Part shown: piece by piece, positions 9,964-42,712 of the stretch
How positions within the stretch are numbered: position 1 is the stretch's first letter
Layout of the letters: each line of letters starts with the position of its first letter
Source: Eubacteriales bacterium
Lineage (GTDB): Bacteria; Bacillota; Clostridia; Oscillospirales; Oscillospiraceae
Length of the DNA stretch: 64,000 nucleotides
Reading direction: 5' to 3'
NCBI GenBank assembly: GCA_030533415.1
Contig: JAUNJE010000008.1
Location: 16,021-80,020, forward strand
The notes under the pieces: model-generated
What the model was told of the DNA's origin: nothing
The model's database searches: none
What the model saw: only the letters and a program-made list of their open reading frames with translations
Position numbers and translations under genes: made by a program

Positions 9964-9996
9964 AAGAAACCGGCTACCAGATGCAGCCGGTTTCTT
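9964..9996. terminator. Intrinsic terminator of the ABC operon and the convergent aro operon
   Basis: AAGAAACCGGCT (9964-9975) pairs perfectly with AGCCGGTTTCTT (9985-9996) around a 9-nt loop, followed by a T-rich tract. Confidence 0.85.
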
Positions 9997-10014: not shown

Positions 10015-10458
10015 TCAGGAAATGCGGTGGCCCAGCAATTCGACAAGATAGCGGATTGCCTCCCGGTAGCCCTCCAAACCATGGCCTTTGATGGTTTTGT
10101 AGCAGGCAAGGCCGGCATAGGAAACCTGACGGAAGGATTCCCGGGAATCTACGTCGGAGATATGCACCTCCACCGCCGGGATGGAGACGGCTTTCAGCGC
10201 GTCGAGAATGGCTACGGAGGTGTGGGTGTAAGCGGCGGGGTTGATGACGATTCCGTCCACCTTCCCGTAGGCCCACTGAATTTTATCTACAATAGCTCCT
10301 TCATGGTTGGATTGGAACTGCTCGATCCCGATGCCCTCCGCCTGGGCTGTTTCTTCCAGCAGTTTCAGGAGATCCGCAAAGGTGTTTTTGCCGTAAATGC
10401 CCGGTTCCCGGATGCCCAGCATGTTCAGGTTGGGGCCGTTGATGACGAGAATTTTCAT
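10015..10458 (-). CDS. aroQ: Type II 3-dehydroquinate dehydratase
   Basis: A 147-residue protein with the type II dehydroquinase signature INGPNLNMLGIREPGIYG at its start, the catalytic Tyr in that segment, FQSNHEGAIVDKIQ at about residues 48-61 and the substrate-binding EVHISD at about 98-103. It removes water from 3-dehydroquinate to give 3-dehydroshikimate, the third shikimate-pathway step, as a cytoplasmic dodecamer in relatives. It is the last gene of the aromatic operon; its ATG overlaps the stop of aroE/K by 4 bp. Confidence 0.96.
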   Translation of the reverse strand: MKILVINGPNLNMLGIREPGIYGKNTFADLLKLLEETAQAEGIGIEQFQSNHEGAIVDKIQWAYGKVDGIVINPAAYTHTSVAILDALKAVSIPAVEVHISDVDSRESFRQVSYAGLACYKTIKGHGLEGYREAIRYLVELLGHRIS

Positions 10459-11684
10459 GGGTTACCCTCCAAAAGTGCCAAAATCGCTTTGACGGTGTCC
10501 TCCGCCGGGCCGTTATTATCAACGGAAAAATCCGCAAAAGCGCCGTACATCGGCTTCCGCCGGGCGTACAGGTCACGGAGCGGATTGCTTTGGGACAGGG
10601 GGCGGCCCTCCGTGGGGAGCAGGTCAATATCCCGCTGCAGCCAGAAGATGCTTCCGTTTTGATGGAGCAGGGGATAGTTGCGCTCCTGGGTGACGGCGCC
10701 GCCGCCGGTGGCAATGACCAAACCGGACTGCTTGCCAAGTTCGGCCAATGCCTTGGTTTCCCAATCCCGGAAAACCGCTTCTCCGTCTCCGGCGAAAATT
10801 TCGGGAATGGATTTGCCTGCGGAGTGCACAATGGCTTCGTCCGCGTCCGCAAGCTTCCGCCCGAGGGCCTTTGCCAGCATGGCGCCGATGGTGCTTTTCC
10901 CGCAGCCCGGCATGCCGGTAAGGACGATGTTCTGCATCTGGACGGAGAGTTTGTGGTGAATGGCTTCGATCACGGAATCATCGATGGCTGCACCTGTGAA
11001 ATACTCAGCCGATTCTTTGGCCTGGGCCACCAGCATCCACAGGCCGTTCTCATGGGGCAGCCCCAGTTTTTCCGCGTCCAGAAGCAGCTGGGTCTTGGCT
11101 GGATTGTAAATCACATCCAAAACGCCCTCCAAATGGGGAAAATCCTTCAAATCCACAGGGGAAACGCCGGTGTTGGGGAACATGCCCACGGGGGTGGTAT
11201 TGACGATGACGGCGGCATCGGCATGGCGGGACAGGTTATGGTAGTTATTCTCGCCGGAACGGGAGATGATAACGACCTGCGCCCCCAGATCACACAACGC
11301 TTTCACGGCGGTATTGGAGGTACCGCCGCTGCCCAAGACCAGCACCTTTTTGTTTTCCACACGGATGCCGCTGCGCTTTACCAGGGAGGTAAAGCCGAAG
11401 TAATCCGTATTGTGGCCGAAAAGGGTGCCGTCCTTTCTGCGGACGATGGTATTGACGGAGCCCATTTTTTTCGCGGTGGGGGACAACTCGTCCAGGTAGG
11501 GAATGACGTCCTTTTTGTAGGGAATGGTCACATTGATGCCGGTAAAATCCCCGTTTCGGACAAAATCCCCTACTTCCTCCGGTTCTTTTTCAAAGAGTAC
11601 ATAGGAATAGTCTCCCAGGTATCCGTGAATCTGAGGGGAGTAGCTGTGGCCCAGCTTTCTTCCCAGCAATCCGCAGTTCATCAA
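10455..11684 (-). CDS. aroE-aroK: Shikimate dehydrogenase-shikimate kinase fusion (AroE-AroK)
   Basis: 409 residues combining two normally separate enzymes. Residues about 1-248 are AroE: substrate site LGHSYSPQIH, catalytic Lys in NVTIPYKKDV, and the NADP-binding GSGGTSNTA at about 118-126. Residues about 250-409 are shikimate kinase: P-loop GMPGCGKST (257-265), ADADEAI-type Mg/shikimate site and GGGAVT. Together they convert 3-dehydroshikimate to shikimate 3-phosphate, steps four and five. Both halves keep their key motifs, so both should be active. The gene overlaps pheA and aroQ by 4 bp each. Confidence 0.95.
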   Translation of the reverse strand: MMNCGLLGRKLGHSYSPQIHGYLGDYSYVLFEKEPEEVGDFVRNGDFTGINVTIPYKKDVIPYLDELSPTAKKMGSVNTIVRRKDGTLFGHNTDYFGFTSLVKRSGIRVENKKVLVLGSGGTSNTAVKALCDLGAQVVIISRSGENNYHNLSRHADAAVIVNTTPVGMFPNTGVSPVDLKDFPHLEGVLDVIYNPAKTQLLLDAEKLGLPHENGLWMLVAQAKESAEYFTGAAIDDSVIEAIHHKLSVQMQNIVLTGMPGCGKSTIGAMLAKALGRKLADADEAIVHSAGKSIPEIFAGDGEAVFRDWETKALAELGKQSGLVIATGGGAVTQERNYPLLHQNGSIFWLQRDIDLLPTEGRPLSQSNPLRDLYARRKPMYGAFADFSVDNNGPAEDTVKAILALLEGNP

Positions 11685-12823
11685 ACCACCTCAGTATAGC
11701 TGCCCAGGTATTTGAATTCCTCACACAGCTCATCCAATTCGCACATCAGCTGGATAAACTCCTCGGAGTAAATGGAGGTTTCCAGATCGAAATAGAACAT
11801 GAATTCAAATTCCCGGTCGGGGATGGGGCGGGATTCCAGCTTGGTGACATTGATGCCCAGAATGTAAAGCCGGGCCAGCACCTTGTACAGGGCGCCTGGC
11901 TTGTGATTCAGGATCATCATGATGCTGGTCTTGTCGGAGCCGGGGTAAATTTCCAGATTTTTGCTGATGCAGATGAACCGGGTGCGGTTGTTTCCCTTGT
12001 CCTGAACGGAGGATGCCAGGCACTCCAGGTTGTACAGCTCCGTGCAGGCCCGGCTGCTCAGGGCGGCCACGTCCTTGCGCCCGGAAGAGGCAACCATTTC
12101 TGCCGCAATGGCGGTGTTGCCGACGGGGATCACATTGACGCCGGGAAGGTTCTGTAGAAAATCTCCACACTGGCTGATGGCCTGCTCATGGGAGTAAACT
12201 TCCTTGATGTCTGAGAGCTTTGTGCCGGGATTCACCAGCAGATTGTGGTCGACCTTCAGCCGGAAGGTGCGGACAATGGAGAAATTGTGCTGGATCATCA
12301 GGTCATAGACCTTCTTCACAGAGCCGGCGGTGGAGTTTTCAATGGGCAAAATGCCATACTGACACATGCCCTGGTCGATGGCGTTGAACACGGCCTCAAA
12401 GTTCTTAAAGTACATGATGAAGGGATTCTTGAAAATCTTTTCACAGGCGATCTGGGAGTAAGCGCCCTCCACGCCCTGGCAGGCAACCATGGGGGCCTGG
12501 GGGAACAGCTTGGGGGTATTTTCAATGGCCTGGGTGATTTCCCGGTACAGGGGGCTGACGAAGCCCCGGCATTTGCTCTGGTAGCTGCTGCTCAGCTCAA
12601 AGAGCATGGAGTACAGCACCCGGGTGTAATTTGCCATTTCCGGGCCTGCCTTTTCCGCCACGTCCTGCAGCTTGGCCCGCTCCCGGCCGGGGTGAAAAAT
12701 GGGAAGGTTGTTTTCCCGCTTGAAGTCCGCGATTTTGGCGGCCACATCCATCCGCTCCCCGAAGAGGCGTACCAGCTCGTCGTCGATTTTGTCTATTTCC
12801 AGACGAAGTTCATTCAGATCCAT
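11681..12823 (-). CDS. pheA: Bifunctional chorismate mutase/prephenate dehydratase (P-protein)
   Basis: 380 residues with three domains: an AroQ-type chorismate mutase helix bundle (about 1-85, beginning LNELRLEIDKIDDELVRLF), a prephenate dehydratase domain (about 110-285, starting ACQGVEGAYSQIA, with the catalytic NRTRFICI segment), and an ACT regulatory domain (about 298-375) with the Phe-binding GALYKVL and ESRP motifs. It takes chorismate to phenylpyruvate and is probably feedback inhibited by phenylalanine through the ACT domain. It lies in the aromatic operon between aroC and aroE/K. Confidence 0.96.
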   Translation of the reverse strand: MDLNELRLEIDKIDDELVRLFGERMDVAAKIADFKRENNLPIFHPGRERAKLQDVAEKAGPEMANYTRVLYSMLFELSSSYQSKCRGFVSPLYREITQAIENTPKLFPQAPMVACQGVEGAYSQIACEKIFKNPFIMYFKNFEAVFNAIDQGMCQYGILPIENSTAGSVKKVYDLMIQHNFSIVRTFRLKVDHNLLVNPGTKLSDIKEVYSHEQAISQCGDFLQNLPGVNVIPVGNTAIAAEMVASSGRKDVAALSSRACTELYNLECLASSVQDKGNNRTRFICISKNLEIYPGSDKTSIMMILNHKPGALYKVLARLYILGINVTKLESRPIPDREFEFMFYFDLETSIYSEEFIQLMCELDELCEEFKYLGSYTEVV

Positions 12824-12824
12824 G

Positions 12825-13919
12825 TTATTTCCTCCTATTTGTCTGGGTATTGCCCAGTATCATGTCGTAGATCGCGATGGCCGCCGCCGCCTCAACGACG
12901 GGCACGGCTCTGGGGACGATGCAGGGGTCGTGACGGCCCTTTACCACCAGCGCCTGCACCTCCGCCTTGCTCAGGGAAACGCTTTGCTGTGGCTTGGAAA
13001 TGGAGGGGGTGGGCTTGATGGCAACCCGAAAAACCAAAGGCATGCCGTTGGTAATGCCGCCCAGGATGCCGCCGCTGTTGTTGGTCGTGGTTTGAAAGCC
13101 ATGTTCGGTTACGGTATAGCGGTCGTTGCACTGGCTGCCCCGCATACAGGCGGAGGAAAAGCCCGCGCCGAATTCCAGCCCCTTGACCGCCGGGATGCCG
13201 TAGATGATCTGGGCAATGCGGCTTTCCACGCCGCCGAACATTGGCTCGCCGATCCCGGCGGGCAGGCCCGTAACGGCGCACTCGATCCGTCCGCCGGCAC
13301 TGTCGCCCTCTTTGCGGGCAGCTTCGATGGCCTGGCGCATACACTGGCCCGCATTTTGGTTTATGACAGGGAAATCCCCGCCGAAATCAGGAATTTGGGG
13401 ATTTATGGGGTCCAAAGGGTCATCGGATACACTGCTTCCGGCAATGGAGAGAATTCGGGCGCCGATTTGGATGCCCATTTCCGCCAGCCATTGCTTGCAC
13501 AGGCCGCCGGCGATACATAGGGGAGCGGTAAGACGTCCGGAGAAATGTCCGCCGCCTGCCGCGTCCTGGAAGCCGCCGTATTTGATCTGGGCGGTATAGT
13601 CCGCGTGACCGGGCCGGGGGCAGTCCTTCAGGTTGGCATAATCCCCGGAGCGGGTGTTTTTGTTGTGGATCACGGCGGCAATGGGCGCGCCGCAGGTATA
13701 GCCGTCCAGGATTCCGGCCAGAAATTCCGGGCGGTCCTCCTCCCGCCGGGGAGTGGACCAGCCGTTTTGCCCCGGCGCCCGGCGGTTCAGGAAAGCCTGC
13801 AAACCGTCAAGGTCCACCGGAAGCCCGGCAGGGATTCCGTCCAGTGTCATGCCGATTGCCGGCCCGTGGGACTGGCCGAAAATGGATAACTTCAAATTTT
13901 CACCGTAGGTGCTGCTCAT
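12825..13919 (-). CDS. aroC: Chorismate synthase
   Basis: 364 residues, the usual size. The family signature GQSHGPAIGMTLDGIPAG is at residues 12-29, with RPGHADYTAQIKYG at about 103-116 and the second signature GGGHFSGRLTA near 122-132; conserved RIGDP-type residues follow near the C-terminus (RHDPCIVPRAVPV). It eliminates phosphate from EPSP to form chorismate with reduced FMN as cofactor. Its start overlaps the end of aroA by 20 bp, which indicates coupled translation. Confidence 0.97.
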   Translation of the reverse strand: MSSTYGENLKLSIFGQSHGPAIGMTLDGIPAGLPVDLDGLQAFLNRRAPGQNGWSTPRREEDRPEFLAGILDGYTCGAPIAAVIHNKNTRSGDYANLKDCPRPGHADYTAQIKYGGFQDAAGGGHFSGRLTAPLCIAGGLCKQWLAEMGIQIGARILSIAGSSVSDDPLDPINPQIPDFGGDFPVINQNAGQCMRQAIEAARKEGDSAGGRIECAVTGLPAGIGEPMFGGVESRIAQIIYGIPAVKGLEFGAGFSSACMRGSQCNDRYTVTEHGFQTTTNNSGGILGGITNGMPLVFRVAIKPTPSISKPQQSVSLSKAEVQALVVKGRHDPCIVPRAVPVVEAAAAIAIYDMILGNTQTNRRK

Positions 13920-15096
13920 AGGTTCCTCCTAACCGGGCGTATTCCTCAAAGAAATGGGGATAGGATTTTTTTACGCATTCCGCTCCCAGGATGGTAACGG
14001 GTTCTTTGCAGACGGTGGCGGCGATGGCGGCGGACATGGCGATCCGGTGGTCATTGGCACTGTCCACGGTGCCGCCGGACAGGCCTGTGCCATAGACGGT
14101 CAGGGTGTTTTCATCTGCCTGCGCTTTTCCGCCCAGATTTTCCAGCATGGCGATCACGGCGGCGACCCGGTCGGATTCCTTTAAGCGAAGCCGCCGGATG
14201 TCCGTAAATTCCGCGCCCTGGCTGCAGGCGGCGGTTACGGCCAGAATGGGAACAAGATCGGGAATATCGGCGGCGGAAACGGTAATTTTCTCCTCCAGCG
14301 CCGGGAGCAGGGTGCCGACTGCCCGGTCGCCCTGGGGGGAATCCGGGGAGAGGTTTTCCACCGACACATGGTTTCCCAACGCCTCCGCCGCCAGGAAAAA
14401 GGCGGCATTGCTCCAATCGCCCTCCACAGTCACGGTTCCGGGAGAGAGAAAAGGACTTCCGCCCTGTACGGCAAAATCATGGGTATCCACGCCGAAAAGC
14501 GCCATTGCCCGCTGGGTCATGGTGATATAGGGACGGGATTCGACTTTTCCGGTGAGGCGGATGCGGCTTTCACCGGGGATCAGCGCCGCTGCGAAAAGCA
14601 GTCCCGTGATGAACTGGCTGGAAACGCCGCCGTCAATGGTATAGTCTCCTGCCCGCAGCCGCCCCTGGCAGCGGATGCTGGTTTGGGTAGGGCGGGAAAG
14701 CCTGCAGCCCATCCGCTCCATTTCCTCCCAGAGGGGGGACAGGGGACGCTCCGGGAGCCGGCCTTCCATTTGAAAGACGGTATCCACCCCCAAAGCACCC
14801 GCAACCGGGAGCAGGAAGCGCAGGGTAGAGCCGCTGTCCCGGCAGTTTAAGATGGCTTCCCGGGGAAGGCGGCGGACAGGGGAAACTGCATAACCCGATT
14901 GGGTTTTGACGATGTCCGCGCCCAAGGCCTCAAGGCATTCGGCAGTGGCTTCAATGTCCCGGTTGGTTTCCGGGCAGAGAAGGGTGGTCGGCTTATCCGC
15001 AAAGGCGGCGCAGATCAGCAGCCGGTGGGCCTGGGATTTGGAGGGAATCGCCCGGACGGTTCCGGACAGTGTTCTGGGGAAAATGGTAATATCCAT
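13900..15096 (-). CDS. aroA: 5-enolpyruvylshikimate-3-phosphate synthase
   Basis: 398 residues, somewhat shorter than the typical 420-430. Recognisable sites are PSKSQAHRLLI (phosphoshikimate binding, about 18-28), CRDSGSTLRFLLP (about 85-97), RPYITMTQ and the C-terminal LRLKESDR and DHRIAMSAAIA. It joins shikimate 3-phosphate and phosphoenolpyruvate. The PEP-binding loop reads DSGSTLRF in place of the NAGTAMRP seen in class I enzymes, so glyphosate sensitivity cannot be predicted from class I rules. It starts 1 bp after aroB's stop. Confidence 0.95.
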   Translation of the reverse strand: MDITIFPRTLSGTVRAIPSKSQAHRLLICAAFADKPTTLLCPETNRDIEATAECLEALGADIVKTQSGYAVSPVRRLPREAILNCRDSGSTLRFLLPVAGALGVDTVFQMEGRLPERPLSPLWEEMERMGCRLSRPTQTSIRCQGRLRAGDYTIDGGVSSQFITGLLFAAALIPGESRIRLTGKVESRPYITMTQRAMALFGVDTHDFAVQGGSPFLSPGTVTVEGDWSNAAFFLAAEALGNHVSVENLSPDSPQGDRAVGTLLPALEEKITVSAADIPDLVPILAVTAACSQGAEFTDIRRLRLKESDRVAAVIAMLENLGGKAQADENTLTVYGTGLSGGTVDSANDHRIAMSAAIAATVCKEPVTILGAECVKKSYPHFFEEYARLGGTYEQHLR

Positions 15097-15097
15097 A

Positions 15098-16150
15098 TCA
15101 AAGACCTGCCTGAATCCAGGATTTCAGAGCGTCCACAGGGGTGGGGACAATGGCGCAGTCGCCGATGGCCCTGGGGACGATCAGCTTTACCGTTCCGCCG
15201 GAGCGTTTCTTGTCGGAAAGCGTGTAGGTGAAAAGGTCATCCGCGCTGAATTCCGTCTTGGTGGGCAGCCCGAACTGGGCCAATACCCGCAGCAGCCGCC
15301 CGCAGACAGCTGCGCTGCACAGGCCGTTTTTCACGGCGGCCCGGGTGATGATGGCCATGCCGGTGGCAACGGCTTTGCCGTGGGAAATTTCAAAACGGCT
15401 CTTTGCTTCTACACCGTGGCCGATGGTATGGCCCAGGTTCAGCTTCATCCGGGCGCCGGTATCGAACTCGTCTTCCATGACCACATCCCGCTTCAGCTCC
15501 ACGCAGCGGGTGATAACGGCTTCCCGGTCAAAGTCAAGCCCCTTTTCCTCCAAATGGAAAAAAAGCTGGGGATCGTACAAAACGCCGTATTTGATGACCT
15601 CGGCACATCCGTCCCGAAACGTATCTGTGGGGAGGGAATTCAGCGTATCGGTGTCGCACAGCACCAGGCTGGGCTGGTAAAAGGCCCCGGCCAGGTTTTT
15701 TCCGGCGGGAAGGTCGATTGCCGTTTTTCCGCCTACGGAGGAGTCCACTGCGGCAAGCAGGGTCGTGGGCACCTGAATGAAGCGGATGCCCCGCAGGAAG
15801 CTGGCGGCGGCAAAGCCCGCCAGGTCTCCCACCACGCCGCCTCCCAGGGCCACGATCAGATCGGAGCGGGTCAGTTTATTTTCTGCCAGGAAGTTCAGCA
15901 GCTGCAAAAAGGTTTTCCCGTTTTTGCTCTCTTCTCCGGAGGGAAAGACAAAGGAAACCACTTCAAATCCGGCGTTTTCCAAATTTTTTACGGCAGGGCC
16001 GCCATAAATCGGGTAGACGGTGGATTCGCTGACGATGCACACCTTCCTGGCCTGGCCCAGCAGCTGGGCCTGCGCACCCAGGGTGTTCAGCACCCCGCAG
16101 CCGATGTGGATGTCATAGGTTTTCGAAGCGCTGACAGTGACGGTATTCAT
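15098..16150 (-). CDS. aroB: 3-dehydroquinate synthase
   Basis: 350 residues with the NAD-binding GGGVVGDLAGFAAASFLRG (about 104-122), the following PTTLLAAVDSSVGGKTAID and a metal-binding LNLGHTIGHGVE (about 244-255). It cyclises DAHP to 3-dehydroquinate, the second shikimate-pathway step, using NAD and a divalent metal. It overlaps tyrA by 4 bp and abuts aroA. Confidence 0.97.
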   Translation of the reverse strand: MNTVTVSASKTYDIHIGCGVLNTLGAQAQLLGQARKVCIVSESTVYPIYGGPAVKNLENAGFEVVSFVFPSGEESKNGKTFLQLLNFLAENKLTRSDLIVALGGGVVGDLAGFAAASFLRGIRFIQVPTTLLAAVDSSVGGKTAIDLPAGKNLAGAFYQPSLVLCDTDTLNSLPTDTFRDGCAEVIKYGVLYDPQLFFHLEEKGLDFDREAVITRCVELKRDVVMEDEFDTGARMKLNLGHTIGHGVEAKSRFEISHGKAVATGMAIITRAAVKNGLCSAAVCGRLLRVLAQFGLPTKTEFSADDLFTYTLSDKKRSGGTVKLIVPRAIGDCAIVPTPVDALKSWIQAGL

Positions 16151-16977
16151 CCGTCCACCTCCTCTTTGCGCTTTTTTCCTTCCTCCAGCAGGGCCACCAG
16201 CGTGTCCATGTCCTTTGCGGCAATGGCTTCCCGGTAGGCCTTCAGGCTGTCGATGTAATGATCCAATTCGTAAAGGACGTTATCGCTATTGTCCAGGAAC
16301 AATTCCGCCCACATCTGGGGGTTCAGCCAGGCAACCCGGGTCAGGTCCTTATAGCTGCCTGCGGAAAAGCCCTTGTGCTTCAGGGCGGTGGGGGATTTGA
16401 TGAATGCGTTGCTCAGGATATGGGGCATCTGGGAGGTAAAGGCGATCATTTTGTCATGCTCTTCGGCGGTGGTAACGGAGAAGAACCCAAAATTGCAGGG
16501 TTTCAGCGCCTCCTTTGCCCGGTCCAGCATCTGCATATCGTCGTATACAGGGGGCACCAGCACCATGGGGGCGCCCTCAAACAGGTCTGCCCGGCTGTAC
16601 TTGAACCCGGAGAACTGGGAGCCTGCCATGGGATGGCCGCCGATGAAGGTAAAGCCGTATTGCTCCGCCAAGGGGAAGCAGCGGCGGCAAACCTCCTTTT
16701 TGATGCCGCAGCAGTCGATCACAAGGGCATGCTTGGAAACCAGGTGCGCATTGCGCTCCAGCCAGGAGGCACTGCCATCGGGATAGATGGCCAGCAGGAG
16801 AAGATCACATTGGGGGATGGTATTCTCGTCCAGCTTTCCGTGAACGGCACCCGCCAGCATGGCGAAGGAGAGCATAGTTTCGTTTCTCTGAATGGCGTAG
16901 ACGGTATGTCCTTCCAGGGCGTAAGCCCGGGCAAGGGAGCCGCCGATCAGGCCAAGCCCTAAAATACCGACCTTCAT
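16147..16977 (-). CDS. tyrA: Prephenate dehydrogenase
   Basis: 276 residues: Rossmann dinucleotide motif GILGLGLIGGSLARA at residues 3-17, GGHPMAGSQFSG at about 118-129 (substrate-binding His) and a C-terminal helical dimerisation domain with DLTRVA. It oxidatively decarboxylates prephenate to 4-hydroxyphenylpyruvate, the precursor of tyrosine. It has no chorismate mutase or ACT domain, so mutase activity for the Tyr branch must come from pheA or elsewhere. Its ATG overlaps the stop of aroF. Confidence 0.95.
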   Translation of the reverse strand: MKVGILGLGLIGGSLARAYALEGHTVYAIQRNETMLSFAMLAGAVHGKLDENTIPQCDLLLLAIYPDGSASWLERNAHLVSKHALVIDCCGIKKEVCRRCFPLAEQYGFTFIGGHPMAGSQFSGFKYSRADLFEGAPMVLVPPVYDDMQMLDRAKEALKPCNFGFFSVTTAEEHDKMIAFTSQMPHILSNAFIKSPTALKHKGFSAGSYKDLTRVAWLNPQMWAELFLDNSDNVLYELDHYIDSLKAYREAIAAKDMDTLVALLEEGKKRKEEVDG

Positions 16978-17975
16978 GCGATGACCTCACGAATCTGCCG
17001 GACCTTATGGCTGACCTCGTCGAACTGGGCCGGGGTCAGGGACTGGGCACCGTCACACAGGGCACAGGCGGGATTGTTGTGCACTTCGATCATAATGCCA
17101 TCAGCGCCTGCCGCAGTCGCGGCGTAAGCCATGGGAGCCACCAGATTTGCCTTGCCGGTGGCGTGGCTGGGGTCTACCACAACGGGCAGATGGGTCAGGT
17201 TGTGCAGTACGGTGACGGCGGACAGGTCCAGGGTGTTCCGGGTAGCGGTCTCGAAGGTCCGGATGCCCCGCTCACAGAGAATGATCCGCTCGTTGCCCTC
17301 GCTCATGATGTATTCGGCGCTCATCAGCAGCTCCTGAATGGTGTTGGCAAGGCCGCGCTTCAGCAGAATGGGCTTGTCGGTTTTGCCCAATTCCTTCAGC
17401 AGGTCGAAGTTCTGCATATTTCTGGCACCCACCTGGATGATGTCCACGTCGGCGAACAGATCCAGTGTGGAGATATTCATGATCTCGGTAACGATGGGCA
17501 GGCCGGTGGCCTTCTTTGCCTCCAGCAGCAGCCGGATACCCTCGCCCTTCATGCCCTGGAAGGCATAGGGGGAGGTGCGGGGCTTGAAGGCGCCGCCCCG
17601 CAGAATGCCGGCACCGGATGCCTTGACAGCCGTTGCAACCTCAATGATCTGCTCCTCGGATTCCACGGAGCAGGGGCCGGCGATCATGGTAAAATACCCG
17701 CCGCCGATTTTGGCGCCGCCCGCTTCGATGATGGTGTCTTTGGGATGGAACTTCCGGTTGGCCTGCTTGAAGGGCTCTGAGACCCGTTTTACGGTCTCCA
17801 CCATTTCCAGGCTTTTCAGCAGTTCCATATCCACCCGGCTGGTATCGCCGATCAGGCCCAAAACAGTGACCTCAGCGCCCTCGGAAATGTGGACATCCAG
17901 GTTCATATTTTTGAGCCAGTCGACCAAATGCTGCATTTGGTCGGGGGTGGTTCCGTGTTTGAGGATTGCGATCAT
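16974..17975 (-). CDS. aroF: 3-deoxy-7-phosphoheptulonate (DAHP) synthase with N-terminal regulatory domain
   Basis: 333 residues. Residues about 1-68 form the ferredoxin-like regulatory domain of type I-beta DAHP synthases; the TIM barrel follows with [27 protein letters not shown], the metal-binding CERGIRTFE and [12 protein letters not shown]. It condenses PEP and erythrose 4-phosphate, the committed step of aromatic biosynthesis. It is the first structural gene of the operon, so the attenuator just upstream controls entry to the whole pathway. The start ATG follows TTAGGAGATGTTTTACT. Confidence 0.97.
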
Positions 17976-17991
17976 AGTAAAACATCTCCTA

Positions 17992-18027
17992 ACAAAAATA
18001 ACGCCGCACGTGCAATTCGTGCGGCGT
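17992..18027 (-). terminator. Attenuator terminator of the aro operon leader
   Basis: On the transcribed minus strand ACGCCGCACG and CGTGCGGCGT form a perfect 10-bp stem with a 7-nt loop, followed by TATTTTTGTT, only about 16 nt before aroF's start codon. Read-through must be regulated for the operon to be expressed. Confidence 0.9.
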
Positions 18028-18076
18028 CTTAAAATACTCTTTTAAGCTCCTGATAATTTACTGCAACACAAATTGC
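18012..18076 (-). promoter_or_regulatory. Antiterminator pairing of the aro attenuator
   Basis: On the RNA, GCAAUUUGUG (18067-18076) can pair over 10 positions (one G-U) with CACGAAUUGC (18012-18021), which overlaps the left arm and loop of the terminator. The two structures exclude each other. A ribosome sitting on the leader stop codon (18079-18081) would cover the 18067-18076 strand. Confidence 0.75.
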
Positions 18077-18106
18077 TATTACTTTTTTGGGGTAAAAAAG
18101 TAATAG
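18076..18106 (-). promoter_or_regulatory. Leader hairpin overlapping the aromatic codons
   Basis: A perfect 13-bp stem (CTATTACTTTTTT 18076-18088 with AAAAAAGTAATAG 18094-18106 on the plus strand) with a 5-nt loop lies inside the Tyr/Phe codon run and the stop. A second long-range pairing, GTTGCAG (18125-18131) with CTGCAAC (18061-18067), encloses it. Translation of the leader would disrupt both. Confidence 0.7.
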
Positions 18107-18147
18107 TAGCTAAAGTAAAAGTAAGTTGCAGCGTTGATAGAAGCCAT
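18079..18147 (-). CDS. Tyr/Phe-rich leader peptide of the aro operon
   Basis: A 22-codon ORF preceded by GGAGG at 18158-18162 (10-nt spacing), starting about 30 nt after the expected transcription start. The peptide reads MASINAAT, then YFYFSYYYFF, then TPKK and a double stop. Nine of ten residues at positions 9-18 are aromatic (five Tyr, four Phe). This matches the design of amino-acid operon leader peptides such as those of pheA and trp in enteric bacteria. Shortage of charged tRNA-Tyr or tRNA-Phe should stall the ribosome in this run and favour the antiterminator; completion should favour termination before aroF. Confidence 0.9.
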   Translation of the reverse strand: MASINAATYFYFSYYYFFTPKK

Positions 18148-18181
18148 GGGATTGTTGCCTCCAAGTCTGGTAGCTGTGGAC

Positions 18182-18210
18182 ATTATACCACGGTGGGTGG
18201 AAGATTGCAA
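18182..18210 (-). promoter_or_regulatory. Promoter of the aro operon
   Basis: On the minus strand TTGCAA (18205-18210), 17 bp, then an extended -10 TGGTATAAT with TATAAT at 18182-18187. Confidence 0.88.
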
Positions 18211-18227: not shown

Positions 18228-19001
18228 TCAAATTATTTTTGCAAGGGCATCCAAAATTCGGCCCACATCCGCAGCGGTTTGTCCGGGCGATGTAAACATG
18301 TGGGAAAACAAGGCGTTCAGGTTTTCCTCAAAGCCTTCGGGAAGCAGGGAACAGGTTTCCCTGCACAGCGTCATCAGCCGTTTTTCGCCGGGATGGGTTT
18401 GCGCATTCAGGGCAAAGAGCAGGTCGAAATAGGATTCCAGGAACGCGGAAACACGGTGGTTGACACTGACCAGGTCGCCCCGCTTTACCGCTTTTTGAAT
18501 CTGCACTTCATAGGCGGGCATGGCGGAGCGCAGCAGCTTCCAATTCCGGTCGATTATGTTTTGTTTCAGTCCGGCGGGATAGGGGACATCAAAACGCTGC
18601 TTTGCGGCGGCCAGGCGGCCGTTTTCATCATAGAGGATTTTGCAGGTGCGCAGGTTGTGCCACATGCAGGTGGTATAGCCATTGCGGCCGTGGCAGCCCT
18701 CCACCACGTCAGCCACATCTGCGGTGAAGCTGTCCAGATCCCGGTAGAGAATGTCCATATCGATGCCGTTTTTCAGCGTGCAGTTGTCCTCATACTCCCA
18801 GAAATGGTTGCCGATTTCCATATAGGAGCAGTATTTCAAAAGAATTTCCCGGCGTACTGTCTCAGAAACCGGGGCGGTGCAGTAAAGATAAATATCGTAA
18901 TCCGATTTTTCGTCGTAATGGCTGCCCGCCCGGGAGCCGCCAAGGGCAATAGCCTCCACCTGGGGAAGGGCGGAAAGCTCAGAAAACAGTGCGTCAATCA
19001 T
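18228..19001 (-). CDS. Nucleotidyltransferase-fold protein (DUF4037-like)
   Basis: 257 residues. The N-terminal polymerase-beta-type nucleotidyltransferase motif is intact: GGSRAGSHYDEKSDYDIYLY (about residues 21-40) supplies the Gly-Ser pair and two metal-binding aspartates, with a third acidic residue in GIDMDILY (about 77-84). The remaining helical region resembles DUF4037 proteins. Members modify antibiotics, proteins or RNA, and the substrate cannot be deduced. The gene ends only 18 bp before the -35 of the aro promoter, with no obvious terminator between, so some read-through into the aro leader is possible. Confidence 0.75.
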   Translation of the reverse strand: MIDALFSELSALPQVEAIALGGSRAGSHYDEKSDYDIYLYCTAPVSETVRREILLKYCSYMEIGNHFWEYEDNCTLKNGIDMDILYRDLDSFTADVADVVEGCHGRNGYTTCMWHNLRTCKILYDENGRLAAAKQRFDVPYPAGLKQNIIDRNWKLLRSAMPAYEVQIQKAVKRGDLVSVNHRVSAFLESYFDLLFALNAQTHPGEKRLMTLCRETCSLLPEGFEENLNALFSHMFTSPGQTAADVGRILDALAKII

Positions 19002-38976: not shown

Positions 38977-41364
38977 TTACCGAAGAGACGCGTCCAGCTT
39001 TTCCTTCAACGCTGTCAGGACCTTGGTGACCACGGTCTCGGAGTCGGTATCGGTCAGGGTGCGTTCATCGGAGCGCAGCTCCAGAGAGAAGGCCATGCTC
39101 TTCTTCCCCTCGGGCACGCCCACGCCACGGTAAATATCGAACAGCTTCACATCCCGCAGCAGCTTTCCGGCAGCGGCGGTGATGACATCCTCTACCTGGG
39201 CGACGGTGATCTCCTCGGCGCAGACCAGGGACAGGTCCCGGGAAACGGTGGGATACTTGGGCAGGGGGGTGTAGGTGGCGTCAGGCAGCCGGCAGGCCAG
39301 CAGCTTGGTGAAGTTGATCTCCGCGCAGTAGATATCCGCTTCAATGCCGTAATTCTGAGCCACCAGAGGATGCACTTGGCCCAGGATACCCACGTCCACG
39401 CCGTCAATGGTGACCTTTGCGCAGCGGCCGGGATGGAAGCTTGGGTTGTCCTTCACGGCGCAGTAGCTTGCTTTCTTGAGACGCAGGCCGGCAAAAACGG
39501 CTTCCAGTTCGCCCTTCAACGTGAAGAAGGTCTCATTGGCGCCATAGGTGCCAAGCACCAGCATTTTTGGTTCTTCAGGCAGGGACTGGCCCTCCACAGG
39601 CAGATAAATCTTTGCCACTTCATAGAGCTTGACGCACTTATTGTGATAGGCGCTGTTCCGGGACAGAATCTCCAGCATGGAGGGCAGTGCGATGGTGCGC
39701 ATGATGGAGGTATCCTCACCCAGCGGATTCTGGATCCGCAGGGCGTTGCGCAGGGGGGAATCGGCGGGAAGCCGGATCTGGTCAAAGACCGCGGGGGAAA
39801 CGAAGGAATAGGTGATGATCTCGCTGTAGCCCAGCCCGCGGCACAGGGTACCCGCCTTGGCTTCCAGCTTCATCTCGGGGGAATAGCCGCCCTGGGTGGA
39901 GGTCTTGAAGGCGGTGGTGGGGATCTCATTGTAGCCGTAGGAGCGGCCCACTTCCTCCGCGATGTCCGCCATCAGGTTCAGGTCAGGCCGGAAGGAGGGA
40001 ACCAAAATGGTGTCGCCTTCCACGGGGATTTCCAGCAGGTTCAGGTATTTTACCATATCCTCCCTGGAGATATCCGTGCCCAGCAGGCGGTTGATCTTAT
40101 CGCATTCCAGGGGCAGGGTCTTGGCTTCCGGGACGTAGTTGATCACGTCGATGGTGCCGTTCAGCACATCGCCGCATTCCAGCAGCTCCACCAGTTCACA
40201 GGCGCGTTGTACTGCGGGAATGGTCATCATGGGATCCAGCTTCTTTTCAAACTTGCCGGAGGCTTCGGTGCGCATACCAAGGGCCAAAGCGGTCTGACGG
40301 ATGGAAGTGCCGTCAAAGTTGGCGGACTCGAAAACCACCATGGTGGTATCGTCCATGATTTCGGAGTTTTCACCGCCCATGATGCCGGCCAGACCGATGG
40401 GCTTATGGTCGTCGGCGATGACCAGCATCCCGGCCTTCAGATTGCGGACATTGCCGTCCAGGGTGGTCAGGGTTTCCCCCTCCTCCGCTTCCCGCACCAC
40501 GATTTTCCCAGAGGAAACATAGCGGTAGTCGAAGGCGTGCATGGGCTGGCCGTATTCCAGCATGACATAGTTGGTGATGTCCACAATATTATTGATGGGC
40601 CGGACGCCGTTGGCCCGCAGCCTCTGGCGCAGCCATTTGGGGGAGGGGCCGATTTTCACATTGGCCACCATCCGGGAGGAGTAACGGTTGCACAGTTCCG
40701 TGGCAGGGACTTCCACATCCAGGTAATCGTAAATGTCCCCGGCATCGCTGCCCTTGACCACAGGCTCATGGTGCCGCATGGACTTGCCGAAGGCCGCGGC
40801 AGCCTCCCGGGCCAGGCCGATGATGGAATAGCAGTCCGGGCGGTTATTGGTGATCTCGAAATCCACGATGGTGTCATCATTGCCGATGACCAGGTTGATA
40901 TCGTCGCCGGGCTTGCAGTTTTCACCGTTGAGAATCCAAATGCCGTCGGCGTAAGCGCCGGGAACGTCGTTCTGGGTCAGCCCCAGCTCCGCAAAGGAGC
41001 AGAGCATACCGTTGGACAGTTCTCCGCGAAGCTTGCCCTTGGTGATGTGGACGCCACCGGGGAGCCAGGAGTTGTGCAGGGCGGTGGGGACCAGGTCGCC
41101 CTCATGGACATTCTGGGCGCCGGTGACGATCTGGACAGGCTCCGCCTGTCCCACATCTACCTGGCAGACCCACATATGGTCGGAGTTGGTGTGGCGCACA
41201 ATGGAGAGCACCTTGCCCACAACGACATTTTTGATCTCCGCATCCATCCGCTCCCAGGTCTCCACCTTTTGACCGAATACGGTCATGGTTTCCACAAATT
41301 CCTTATCGGAAACGCTGGAAAGGTCCACGAATTCCTCATTCAGCCATTTTCTGTTGAGTTTCAT
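38977..41364 (-). CDS. pheT: Phenylalanine-tRNA ligase beta subunit
   Basis: 795 residues, normal length. The N-terminal EMAP/OB tRNA-binding domain is present (about 40-150, VVGKVLSIVRHTNSDHMWVCQVDVG), followed by B3/B4 editing, B5, the synthetase-like core and a C-terminal ferredoxin-fold anticodon-binding domain (LPKYPTVSRDLSLVC to the end). With PheS it forms the alpha2-beta2 enzyme that charges tRNA-Phe and edits mischarged Tyr. It lies 13 bp after pheS and is governed by the same T-box leader. Confidence 0.97.
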   Translation of the reverse strand: MKLNRKWLNEEFVDLSSVSDKEFVETMTVFGQKVETWERMDAEIKNVVVGKVLSIVRHTNSDHMWVCQVDVGQAEPVQIVTGAQNVHEGDLVPTALHNSWLPGGVHITKGKLRGELSNGMLCSFAELGLTQNDVPGAYADGIWILNGENCKPGDDINLVIGNDDTIVDFEITNNRPDCYSIIGLAREAAAAFGKSMRHHEPVVKGSDAGDIYDYLDVEVPATELCNRYSSRMVANVKIGPSPKWLRQRLRANGVRPINNIVDITNYVMLEYGQPMHAFDYRYVSSGKIVVREAEEGETLTTLDGNVRNLKAGMLVIADDHKPIGLAGIMGGENSEIMDDTTMVVFESANFDGTSIRQTALALGMRTEASGKFEKKLDPMMTIPAVQRACELVELLECGDVLNGTIDVINYVPEAKTLPLECDKINRLLGTDISREDMVKYLNLLEIPVEGDTILVPSFRPDLNLMADIAEEVGRSYGYNEIPTTAFKTSTQGGYSPEMKLEAKAGTLCRGLGYSEIITYSFVSPAVFDQIRLPADSPLRNALRIQNPLGEDTSIMRTIALPSMLEILSRNSAYHNKCVKLYEVAKIYLPVEGQSLPEEPKMLVLGTYGANETFFTLKGELEAVFAGLRLKKASYCAVKDNPSFHPGRCAKVTIDGVDVGILGQVHPLVAQNYGIEADIYCAEINFTKLLACRLPDATYTPLPKYPTVSRDLSLVCAEEITVAQVEDVITAAAGKLLRDVKLFDIYRGVGVPEGKKSMAFSLELRSDERTLTDTDSETVVTKVLTALKEKLDASLR

Positions 41365-41377
41365 TTTCTATCCCTCC

Positions 41378-42421
41378 TTAGAACTGGTTCAGGAACCGCA
41401 CATCGTTGTCGAAGATCAAACGCAGGTCATTGATCTTCATGCGGCCCATGGCGGTGCGCTCCAGGCCCATGCCGAAGGCAAAGCCGGAGTACTTTTCCGG
41501 GTCGATGCCGCAGTTTTCCAGGACCTTGGGGTGAACCATGCCGGCGCCCAGCAGCTCGATCCAGCCTTCACCGTGGCAGGTGGAGCAGACCTGTCCGCCG
41601 ATCTCTCCGCTGCCGTGGCACTTGTGGCACGGCCTATCCATTTCGCAGCTCGGCTCGGTGAAGGGGAAGTGATGGGGGCGGAAGCGGACCTGGGCGTCAT
41701 GGCCGTAGATTTTGTTAATGATGTTGATCAGCGCGCCCTTCAGGTCGCCCATGGTGATGTTTTCCGCCACCACAAGTCCCTCAATTTGATGGAACATGGG
41801 GGAGTGGGTGGCGTCGGCTTCATCCTTCCGGAATACCCGGCCGGGAGCCAGCATACACAGGGGCGGCTTGTTGTTTTCCATGAAGCGGATCTGCATGGAG
41901 CTGGTCTGGGTGCGCAGCAGCACGCTGTCGTCGTCGGTAAAATAGAAGGTGTCGGAGCGGTCCCGGGAGGGATGCCCTTCTTCAGTGTTCAGACGGGTAA
42001 AATTGTAGCTGGCAAGTTCCACCTCAGGCCCGTCCACTACGGTGTAGCCCATGCCCACAAAGATGTCCTTGATCTCCTGCAGCACCTGGTTCATGGGATG
42101 CTGATGGCCAATGGCTACCGCTTCGCCGGGAATGGTGACGTCGATGGCCTCAGCGGCCAGCTTGGATTCCAGAACGGCGGCGTGGATGGCGGCCTTGCGC
42201 TCCTCCAGCTTTGCCTCGATCTCTGCTCGGACGGTGTTGGCGATTTGGCCCATGACGGGGCGCTCCTCGGGGGACAGCTTTCCCATCTGCTTCAGGACAG
42301 CGGTCAGCGCGCCCTTTTTGCCCAGCAGCCGGACCCGCTGCTCTTCCAGCTCAGCCGGAGTGGCGGAAGATTCCAGGGCTGCCAGAGCATTTTTCTTGAT
42401 CTGCTCCAATTGTTCTCTCAT
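41378..42421 (-). CDS. pheS: Phenylalanine-tRNA ligase alpha subunit
   Basis: 347 residues with a helical N-terminal arm (about 1-90) and class II core motifs: motif 1 around HPMNQVLQEI, motif 2 DATHSPMFHQIEGLVV, motif 3 GFAFGMGLERTAM. Between RPHHFPFTEPS and ELLGAGMVHP it carries an insertion with two CXXC pairs (CHKCHGSGE and CSTCHGEGW), a zinc-knuckle variant found in clostridial PheS. Start follows AGGAGGAATCAAA. Confidence 0.97.
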   Translation of the reverse strand: MREQLEQIKKNALAALESSATPAELEEQRVRLLGKKGALTAVLKQMGKLSPEERPVMGQIANTVRAEIEAKLEERKAAIHAAVLESKLAAEAIDVTIPGEAVAIGHQHPMNQVLQEIKDIFVGMGYTVVDGPEVELASYNFTRLNTEEGHPSRDRSDTFYFTDDDSVLLRTQTSSMQIRFMENNKPPLCMLAPGRVFRKDEADATHSPMFHQIEGLVVAENITMGDLKGALINIINKIYGHDAQVRFRPHHFPFTEPSCEMDRPCHKCHGSGEIGGQVCSTCHGEGWIELLGAGMVHPKVLENCGIDPEKYSGFAFGMGLERTAMGRMKINDLRLIFDNDVRFLNQF

Positions 42422-42443: not shown

Positions 42444-42712
42444 CTGATAAAATAAAACGCCCATCATCCCTACTCTGGGGACGAAAGGCATTCCTTCCGC
42501 GGTACCACCCGCATTTCGCCGAAGACGGCGCGCTTTTCGGATGCAGACACATCCAAGACCGTTAACGGAGTCACCCGTCCAACCCTACTTTTCGTTCAGG
42601 CAGCAGCTCCTGGGAGAAAGCCCGGCATTGCACGCAAGCGGATCCCACCATCCCGCTCTCTCTACGGTCGCAAACCAATACAAGGCAGCCCAATCATCGC
42701 TTTTGACATATC
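42444..42712 (-). promoter_or_regulatory. T-box riboswitch leader of pheST
   Basis: The minus-strand leader contains the invariant T-box core GGGTGGTACCGCG (complement of 42497-42510) and upstream stem I features including an AGAGAGCGGG loop region. It ends in a terminator in which GCCTTTCGTCCC pairs with GGGATGATGGGC, followed by GTTTTATTTT. Uncharged tRNA-Phe should bind the specifier and the T-box bulge and allow read-through. I could not fix the specifier codon by eye; TTC triplets exist in the expected arm. Confidence 0.93.

Follow-up and report, generated by a model that had tools for sequence, protein, structure and literature searches.

A probable Phe/Tyr-sensing, ribosome-mediated attenuator upstream of the aroF operon in Clostridia

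The leader of the aroF operon in the analysed stretch of DNA (64,000 nucleotides; hereafter the window) is very probably a ribosome-mediated transcription attenuator, which would sense charged tRNA-Phe and tRNA-Tyr and control the whole aroF-tyrA-aroB-aroA-aroC-pheA-aroEK-aroQ operon. The anatomy of the leader, its conservation in relatives and the covariation of its helices were established directly. An ORF with a ribosome site lies between a putative promoter and the first gene and carries codons for the amino acids that the operon produces, and a terminator precedes aroF. There are also a covarying antiterminator that excludes the terminator, a segment of the leader that competes for it, and a stop codon so placed that a ribosome there could cover the antiterminator strand. 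The elements of the leader are listed below.

18182..18210, minus strand: putative sigma-70-type promoter (-35 TTGCAA at 18210-18205, -10 TATAAT at 18187-18182, spacer of 17 nt)
18158..18162, minus strand: Shine-Dalgarno sequence GGAGG, read from the letters, 10 nt upstream of the leader ATG
18079..18147, minus strand: leader ORF MASINAATYFYFSYYYFFTPKK, 22 codons plus TAA (ATG at 18147, TAA at 18081-18079)
18094..18123, minus strand: predicted sensing codons 9-18, Tyr-Phe-Tyr-Phe-Ser-Tyr-Tyr-Tyr-Phe-Phe (9 of 10 aromatic)
18076..18106, minus strand: inner leader hairpin P1a, 18106-18094 pairing with 18088-18076 (13 bp)
18060..18132, minus strand: outer leader pairing P1b, GCTGCAAC (18132-18125) with GTTGCAGT (18067-18060), 8 pairs
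18067..18076, minus strand: antiterminator 5' strand GCAATTTGTG, beginning 2 nt past the leader stop codon
18012..18021, minus strand: antiterminator 3' strand CACGAATTGC, made of the end of the terminator left arm and most of the loop
17990..18028, minus strand: intrinsic terminator of 11 pairs (left arm 18028-18018, 7-nt loop 18017-18011, right arm 18010-18000)

The earlier note on this DNA had described the minus-strand promoter, the 22-codon ORF with nine aromatic codons in ten, the terminator directly upstream of aroF and the antiterminator strand, and on rechecking the letters all four were found where it had placed them. The promoter, assigned purely by consensus match, agrees with the consensus at 10 of 12 positions; comparable matches number 4 in 4 kb, against 2.5 in shuffles. 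The terminator stem (18028-18000) is followed by ATTTTTGTTA, with a T-rich tail at 17999-17990, and ends 24 nt from aroF. Antiterminator strand 18076-18067 pairs with 18021-18012 at 10 of 10 positions, one of them G-U, and lies 38 nt from the terminator. The distance from the stop codon to this strand had to be corrected, from 3 nt to 2 nt (18078-18077). The leader hairpin formed by P1a and P1b had been absent from the earlier description. Folding builds P1a from the Tyr/Phe codons and the Lys-Lys-stop stretch, while P1b overlaps the antiterminator strand, so that the leader codons compete for that strand. The folding z-score of the leader transcript is -4.4, and none of 200 shuffles was equally stable.

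Eight genes of aromatic amino acid synthesis follow the leader, and any two adjacent ones overlap or sit 1 nt apart.

16974..17975, minus strand: aroF, 3-deoxy-7-phosphoheptulonate synthase (PRK08673 and TIGR01361 above cut-off), the predicted first regulated gene
16147-16977, minus strand: prephenate dehydrogenase, tyrA (strong E-value, below the curated NCBIfam cut-off)
15098-16150, minus strand: aroB (NCBIfam, above cut-off)
13900-15096, minus strand: aroA (NCBIfam, above cut-off)
12825-13919, minus strand: aroC (NCBIfam, above cut-off)
11681-12823, minus strand: chorismate mutase/prephenate dehydratase, pheA (strong E-value, below the curated NCBIfam cut-off)
10455-11684, minus strand: shikimate dehydrogenase-shikimate kinase fusion, aroEK (strong E-value, below the curated NCBIfam cut-off)
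10015-10458, minus strand: aroQ (NCBIfam, above cut-off)
9964..9996, minus strand: terminator-like hairpin 3' of aroQ, 14 pairs, likely the end of the operon

With Phe and Tyr as its products and no trp gene among its members, the operon fits the Tyr and Phe codons of the leader. The gene upstream of the leader (18228-19001, minus strand) matches Pfam DUF4037 at E 6e-8, and NCBIfam gave no match for it at E 1e-10.

A chance origin of the Tyr/Phe run was considered and set aside on the basis of an ORF scan and of shuffles. The two strands of the window together contain 983 ORFs that start with ATG and are 8-50 codons long. Only the leader frame, read from either of two start codons, rises above 5 Tyr/Phe in any ten residues, with a maximum of 9. 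When the upstream region was shuffled 20,000 times with its dinucleotides preserved, 15 shuffles reached 7 Tyr/Phe in 10, one reached 8 and none reached 9.

In the proposed mechanism, the leader would be translated and would respond to Phe and Tyr through the charging of their tRNAs. When either amino acid is short, the ribosome would stall on the codon run (18123-18094) and mask the 5' side of the leader hairpin. Strand 18076-18067 would then be free to pair with 18021-18012, no terminator would form, and the operon would be transcribed. When both amino acids are plentiful, the ribosome would reach the stop codon (18081-18079) and cover the strand, the terminator would form, and the terminated leader RNA should end at about 17990-17999. 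If the leader is not translated, the leader hairpin would compete for the strand, which should likewise favour termination. RNA polymerase is described as running ahead of the ribosomes in B. subtilis (PMC7858274); runaway transcription of this kind would weaken the attenuator unless RNA polymerase pauses at the leader.

The spread of the leader was analyzed by a uniform scan for ATG-started ORFs with at least 6 Tyr/Phe in 10 residues, no more than 350 nt upstream of aroF. The aroF gene was present in 49 of 60 genomes, including the one that contains the window, and in 34 of the 37 of the genus. The Tyr/Phe leader was found in 31 of 33 same-genus regions, in 8 of 16 same-order regions (14 genomes from other families of the order), in 67 of 80 named aroF upstream regions (the best 80 of 589 matches) and in 8 of 60 phylum-wide regions; three of the eight same-order misses reach 5 in 10. 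Shuffled regions reached 6 in 10 in 0.35-0.81% of cases across the sets. These counts are not to be added, since the named records overlap the other genome sets (L063, L031). The named relatives, again the best 80 of 589, are mostly assemblies labelled Oscillospiraceae, Clostridia or similar, and one is a Faecousia sp. The phylum-wide set represents 60 of at least 177 matching genomes, with one region per family and two for family f50. The region set excludes the aroF match of genome G048, the additional copy found in G058 and a pair of fragments from G044.

The uniform scan gave no leader peptide upstream of aroF in two same-genus regions, L036 and L042. By eye, both have a promoter-like stretch and a hairpin near aroF, with a T tail that is clear in L042 and weak in L036. 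In a further same-genus genome (G035), outside the 33-region count, the aroF match was partial and divergent and no leader was seen upstream of it. Of the 38 genomes of the genus scanned for the exact P1a hairpin pattern, 24 contain it, each a single time, and none contains a reversed control pattern. By their coordinates, 23 of the 24 matches lie just upstream of aroF; the 24th is in a genome outside the aroF search (G258). Some leaders of the genus without an exact match have small changes in the arms.

Several side observations were made on these regions. Four close relatives of aroF with Tyr/Phe-rich leaders carry the labels Thermoguttaceae, Lentisphaerae or Kiritimatiellae (L096, L097, L118 and L130; 5 Tyr/Phe in 10 in L097 and 6-7 in the others), and these may be mislabelled bins or cases of transfer. 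An FMN riboswitch (L066, 340-454) and a glmS ribozyme (L039, 455-609) lie near the aro loci of two relatives, outside the leaders.

The ten-residue runs of the 106 leaders contain 393 Phe, 391 Tyr and 2 Trp among 1060 residues, and 103 of the 106 runs have at least two Phe and two Tyr. Because the runs were picked for Tyr and Phe together, the nearly equal split between these two is informative, and the low share of Trp is less so. In the leaders of L157, L080, L085 and L108, Trp occurs alongside Tyr and Phe, which would suit a sensor of all three aromatic amino acids; L080 falls under the Tyr/Phe threshold.

The alternative helices were then examined for covariation. MAFFT aligned the terminator loop poorly, and the antiterminator was therefore tested by swapping strands and not by counting columns. 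For each leader, pairing was computed between the strand after the Tyr/Phe run and the left arm plus loop, both of its own terminator and of every other. The terminator scan, which allowed no bulge, found a stem of -13 kcal/mol or better in 76 of the 106 leaders and none in 20. In five of these 20 (L013, L021, L023, L030 and L031), an imperfect stem before a T-rich stretch was seen by eye. Omission of the 20 stemless leaders, of 10 with stems weaker than -13 kcal/mol and of one with too short a spacing left 75 leaders, and removal of near-identical ones left 64 loci for the pairing tests.

The mean energy of the antiterminator with its own terminator was -18.2 kcal/mol, as against -14.2 kcal/mol with swapped ones (N = 64), and this advantage was reached in none of 20,000 permutations, in none of 20,000 within the genus alone (N = 27) and in none of 20,000 among the rest (N = 37). 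The leader codons likewise preferred their own downstream strand (-25.7 versus -20.0), with 0 of 20,000 permutations overall and 0 of 20,000 outside the genus. Within the genus, where there is little sequence variation, this pairing gave a weaker signal (148 of 20,000). Three control pairings were not own-specific (17,970, 19,523 and 2,489 of 20,000 permutations). Permutations and shuffles are uncorrected for relatedness. The advantage of the own pair was absent in three of the 64 loci (L040, L043 and L094), which paired no better than with an average terminator, and was 1.2 kcal/mol or less in six more (L012, L019, L029, L044, L064 and L108).

In the alignment of the genus (31 sequences), 94.5% of the cells of the leader hairpin and the terminator are standard pairs. 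Double-sided changes occur in eight pairs, of which the terminator contributes seven. By four of five measures, the covariation exceeded all 500 shuffles, while by the fifth it was equalled by 31 of 500; all five dropped when the pairing partner was slid by one to three columns. The antiterminator strand opens with 45 different hexamers among the 64 loci, which indicates that the pairing has been kept more than the sequence. In several relatives outside the genus (e.g. L033, L085 and L104), the ORF continues through the antiterminator strand, which in the window lies past the stop codon. The strand is thus conserved as RNA, not as peptide. The comparison of aroF leaders from relatives, which the earlier note had proposed as a check, thus came out in its favour: the Tyr/Phe run is kept and the alternative helices covary.

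The effect of a ribosome on these helices was modelled by folding the leader RNA, ending at the terminator loop, with a mask that reached 17 nt upstream and 13 nt downstream of the first base in the A-site codon. The mask size follows what is generally known of ribosome footprints. Over the 64 loci, a stalled ribosome gave 12.3 expected antiterminator pairs (mean of ten codons), against 6.7 in the ribosome-free fold and 3.2 when the ribosome stood on the stop codon. In 62 of the 64 loci (all but L020 and L071), the best stall gained more than 3 pairs over the stop position, and in 48 of 64 it gained more than 3 over the ribosome-free state. The masked folding thus reproduces, in most of the 64 loci, the switch that the earlier note had suggested, in which a stalled ribosome permits antitermination and one that has finished the leader blocks it.

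These values should be read with the properties of the model in mind. Placing the mask at the start codon likewise gave a mean of 11.4 pairs over the 64 loci; in this model, the preference for the antiterminator is thus not peculiar to the Tyr/Phe run. The outcome at the stop codon is largely a consequence of the chosen mask size, and in 10 of the 64 loci the stop mask retained at least half of the stalled value. For the leader in the window, the stalled ribosome gave 14.5-14.9 pairs, the ribosome-free fold 11.9 and the stop position 3.9; with 11.9 pairs, its strand is only weakly sequestered, and the untranslated state only weakly shut. In all 64 loci, the antiterminator strand starts within the ORF or no more than 7 nt past its stop codon, and a finishing ribosome could thus cover it.

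There are other possible interpretations of these results. The leader peptide might arrest the ribosome through its own sequence together with free Phe or Tyr, and not through tRNA charging; TnaC, a nascent-chain sensor, is the model for such an arrest. In many same-genus leaders, YYYFF and the terminal Lys-Lys or Lys-Arg are indeed kept, but RNA pairing accounts for this conserved tail, since the same bases form the 13-bp hairpin, in which one pair has changed on both sides, in L029. Beyond the genus, the run keeps its composition, but neither its order nor its spacing. Arrest at the run by an abundant amino acid would, moreover, be expected to switch the operon in the wrong direction. We therefore consider peptide arrest very unlikely. 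Even less probable, in our view, is a leader that acts chiefly on the translation of aroF or on mRNA stability with little premature termination. The uncoupled transcription described for B. subtilis (PMC7858274) would speak for such control, but a strong intrinsic terminator stands close upstream of aroF and, as described above, recurs in most of the leaders, the covarying antiterminator is directed at the arm and loop of that terminator, and the ribosome site of aroF lies outside its stem.

Control of the operon by a T-box, a riboswitch or a protein-binding leader, with the ORF only incidental, also has to be weighed, because T-boxes are used in this genome. The T-box covariance model (RF00230) gave 11 matches at E up to 0.001, 4 of them above the cut-off, and one of the 11 lies at pheST in the window, where the earlier note had already recognized a T-box:

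42474-42706, minus strand: T-box upstream of pheS (80.6 bits, E 7.7e-16)
41378-42421, minus strand: pheS, directly after the T-box (above NCBIfam cut-off)
38977-41364, minus strand: pheT (above NCBIfam cut-off)

The score of this T-box is below the Rfam gathering score of 93, which is why it is absent from a default scan. A T-box consensus expression matched 7 of the 60 phylum-wide aroF regions, and all 7 are without a Tyr/Phe leader. At the aroF leader itself, however, none of the 11 matches was found, and Rfam gave no match there (E up to 1) or on the leaders of 20 relatives (E up to 0.1). These results make a T-box, riboswitch or protein-binding leader extremely improbable. The presence of 11 T-box matches together with the Tyr/Phe leader suggests that the lineage uses both systems.

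Ribosome-mediated attenuation through charged tRNA-Phe and tRNA-Tyr, the reading that we prefer, has parallels in known systems. The pheA, pheST, trp and his leaders of E. coli have mutually exclusive RNA segments, regulatory codons and a terminator, as has the aroF leader. E. coli differs in that pheL senses Phe alone and in that aroF-tyrA is mainly under TyrR.

The earlier note had called such an attenuator unusual in Firmicutes. This judgement has to be toned down, since the literature already contains both leader-peptide attenuators from Firmicutes and uORFs that carry Phe/Tyr codons at aroF or at other genes of the shikimate pathway. The uORFC-13-1 motif, described in PMC8632094, lies upstream of aroF in Acholeplasma, and control by the speed of Phe incorporation was proposed for it. 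It resembles the aroF leader in its gene, in a uORF with a possible promoter, ribosome site and start codon, in its Phe codon(s) and in a terminator right after the uORF. It differs in that its 24 representatives come from Acholeplasma and environmental sequences only; its description mentions one or more Phe residues, not a Phe/Tyr run, and the likeness is one of description, not of consensus. Figure 6b of PMC6429828 gives two candidate uORFs with Phe and Tyr codons at shikimate genes, for which uORF control was proposed. Compared by description, these two uORFs, which come from a study of five genomes, one of them Clostridium novyi, share the codons and the pathway with the aroF leader and may be its relatives.

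Other attenuators of Bacillota sense other amino acids. The leucine-rich ilv-leu attenuator of Staphylococcus aureus, supported by promoter-activity and mutant evidence (PMC5794164), is likewise a leader-peptide attenuator (26-aa peptide) with a terminator, whereas it responds to branched-chain amino acids and its proposed antiterminator pairs with the U tail and not with the terminator arm. His leader attenuators of Firmicutes (bacilli, Eubacteriales and Erysipelotrichales) appear in PMC2965389 and PMC9413887, the latter naming 17 species; they share the class of mechanism but differ in histidine and in the genes. The survey of attenuation in amino acid operons by Lopatovskaya et al. 2010, cited in PMC4833913, may hold related predictions. 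Among the matches listed, no description of the element in Oscillospirales was found in the open-licence PMC literature, and neither its spread over Oscillospiraceae-type Clostridia nor covariation support for it was found in the open-licence literature. The kind of element is thus already known in print, as Phe/Tyr, Phe, His and Leu uORFs or leaders, and what makes it interesting is how widely it occurs in Clostridia.

It is quite possible, though somewhat short of probable, that classic Phe/Tyr attenuation predominates in the control of aromatic synthesis across much of the Clostridia, in Oscillospiraceae and related groups, and is perhaps ancestral there. If this is true, ribosomes would stay near RNA polymerase in these bacteria, at the very least while leaders are transcribed, unlike the runaway transcription described for B. 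subtilis. The aroF leaders add a broad, covariation-backed set of putative attenuators of the ribosome-mediated type to the Clostridia, a group in which one would expect T-boxes; the genome of the window itself has 11 T-box matches. One switch is predicted to read Phe and Tyr jointly for an operon of eight genes, and the aroF leader would be a natural reporter for transcription-translation coupling in Clostridia of this type.
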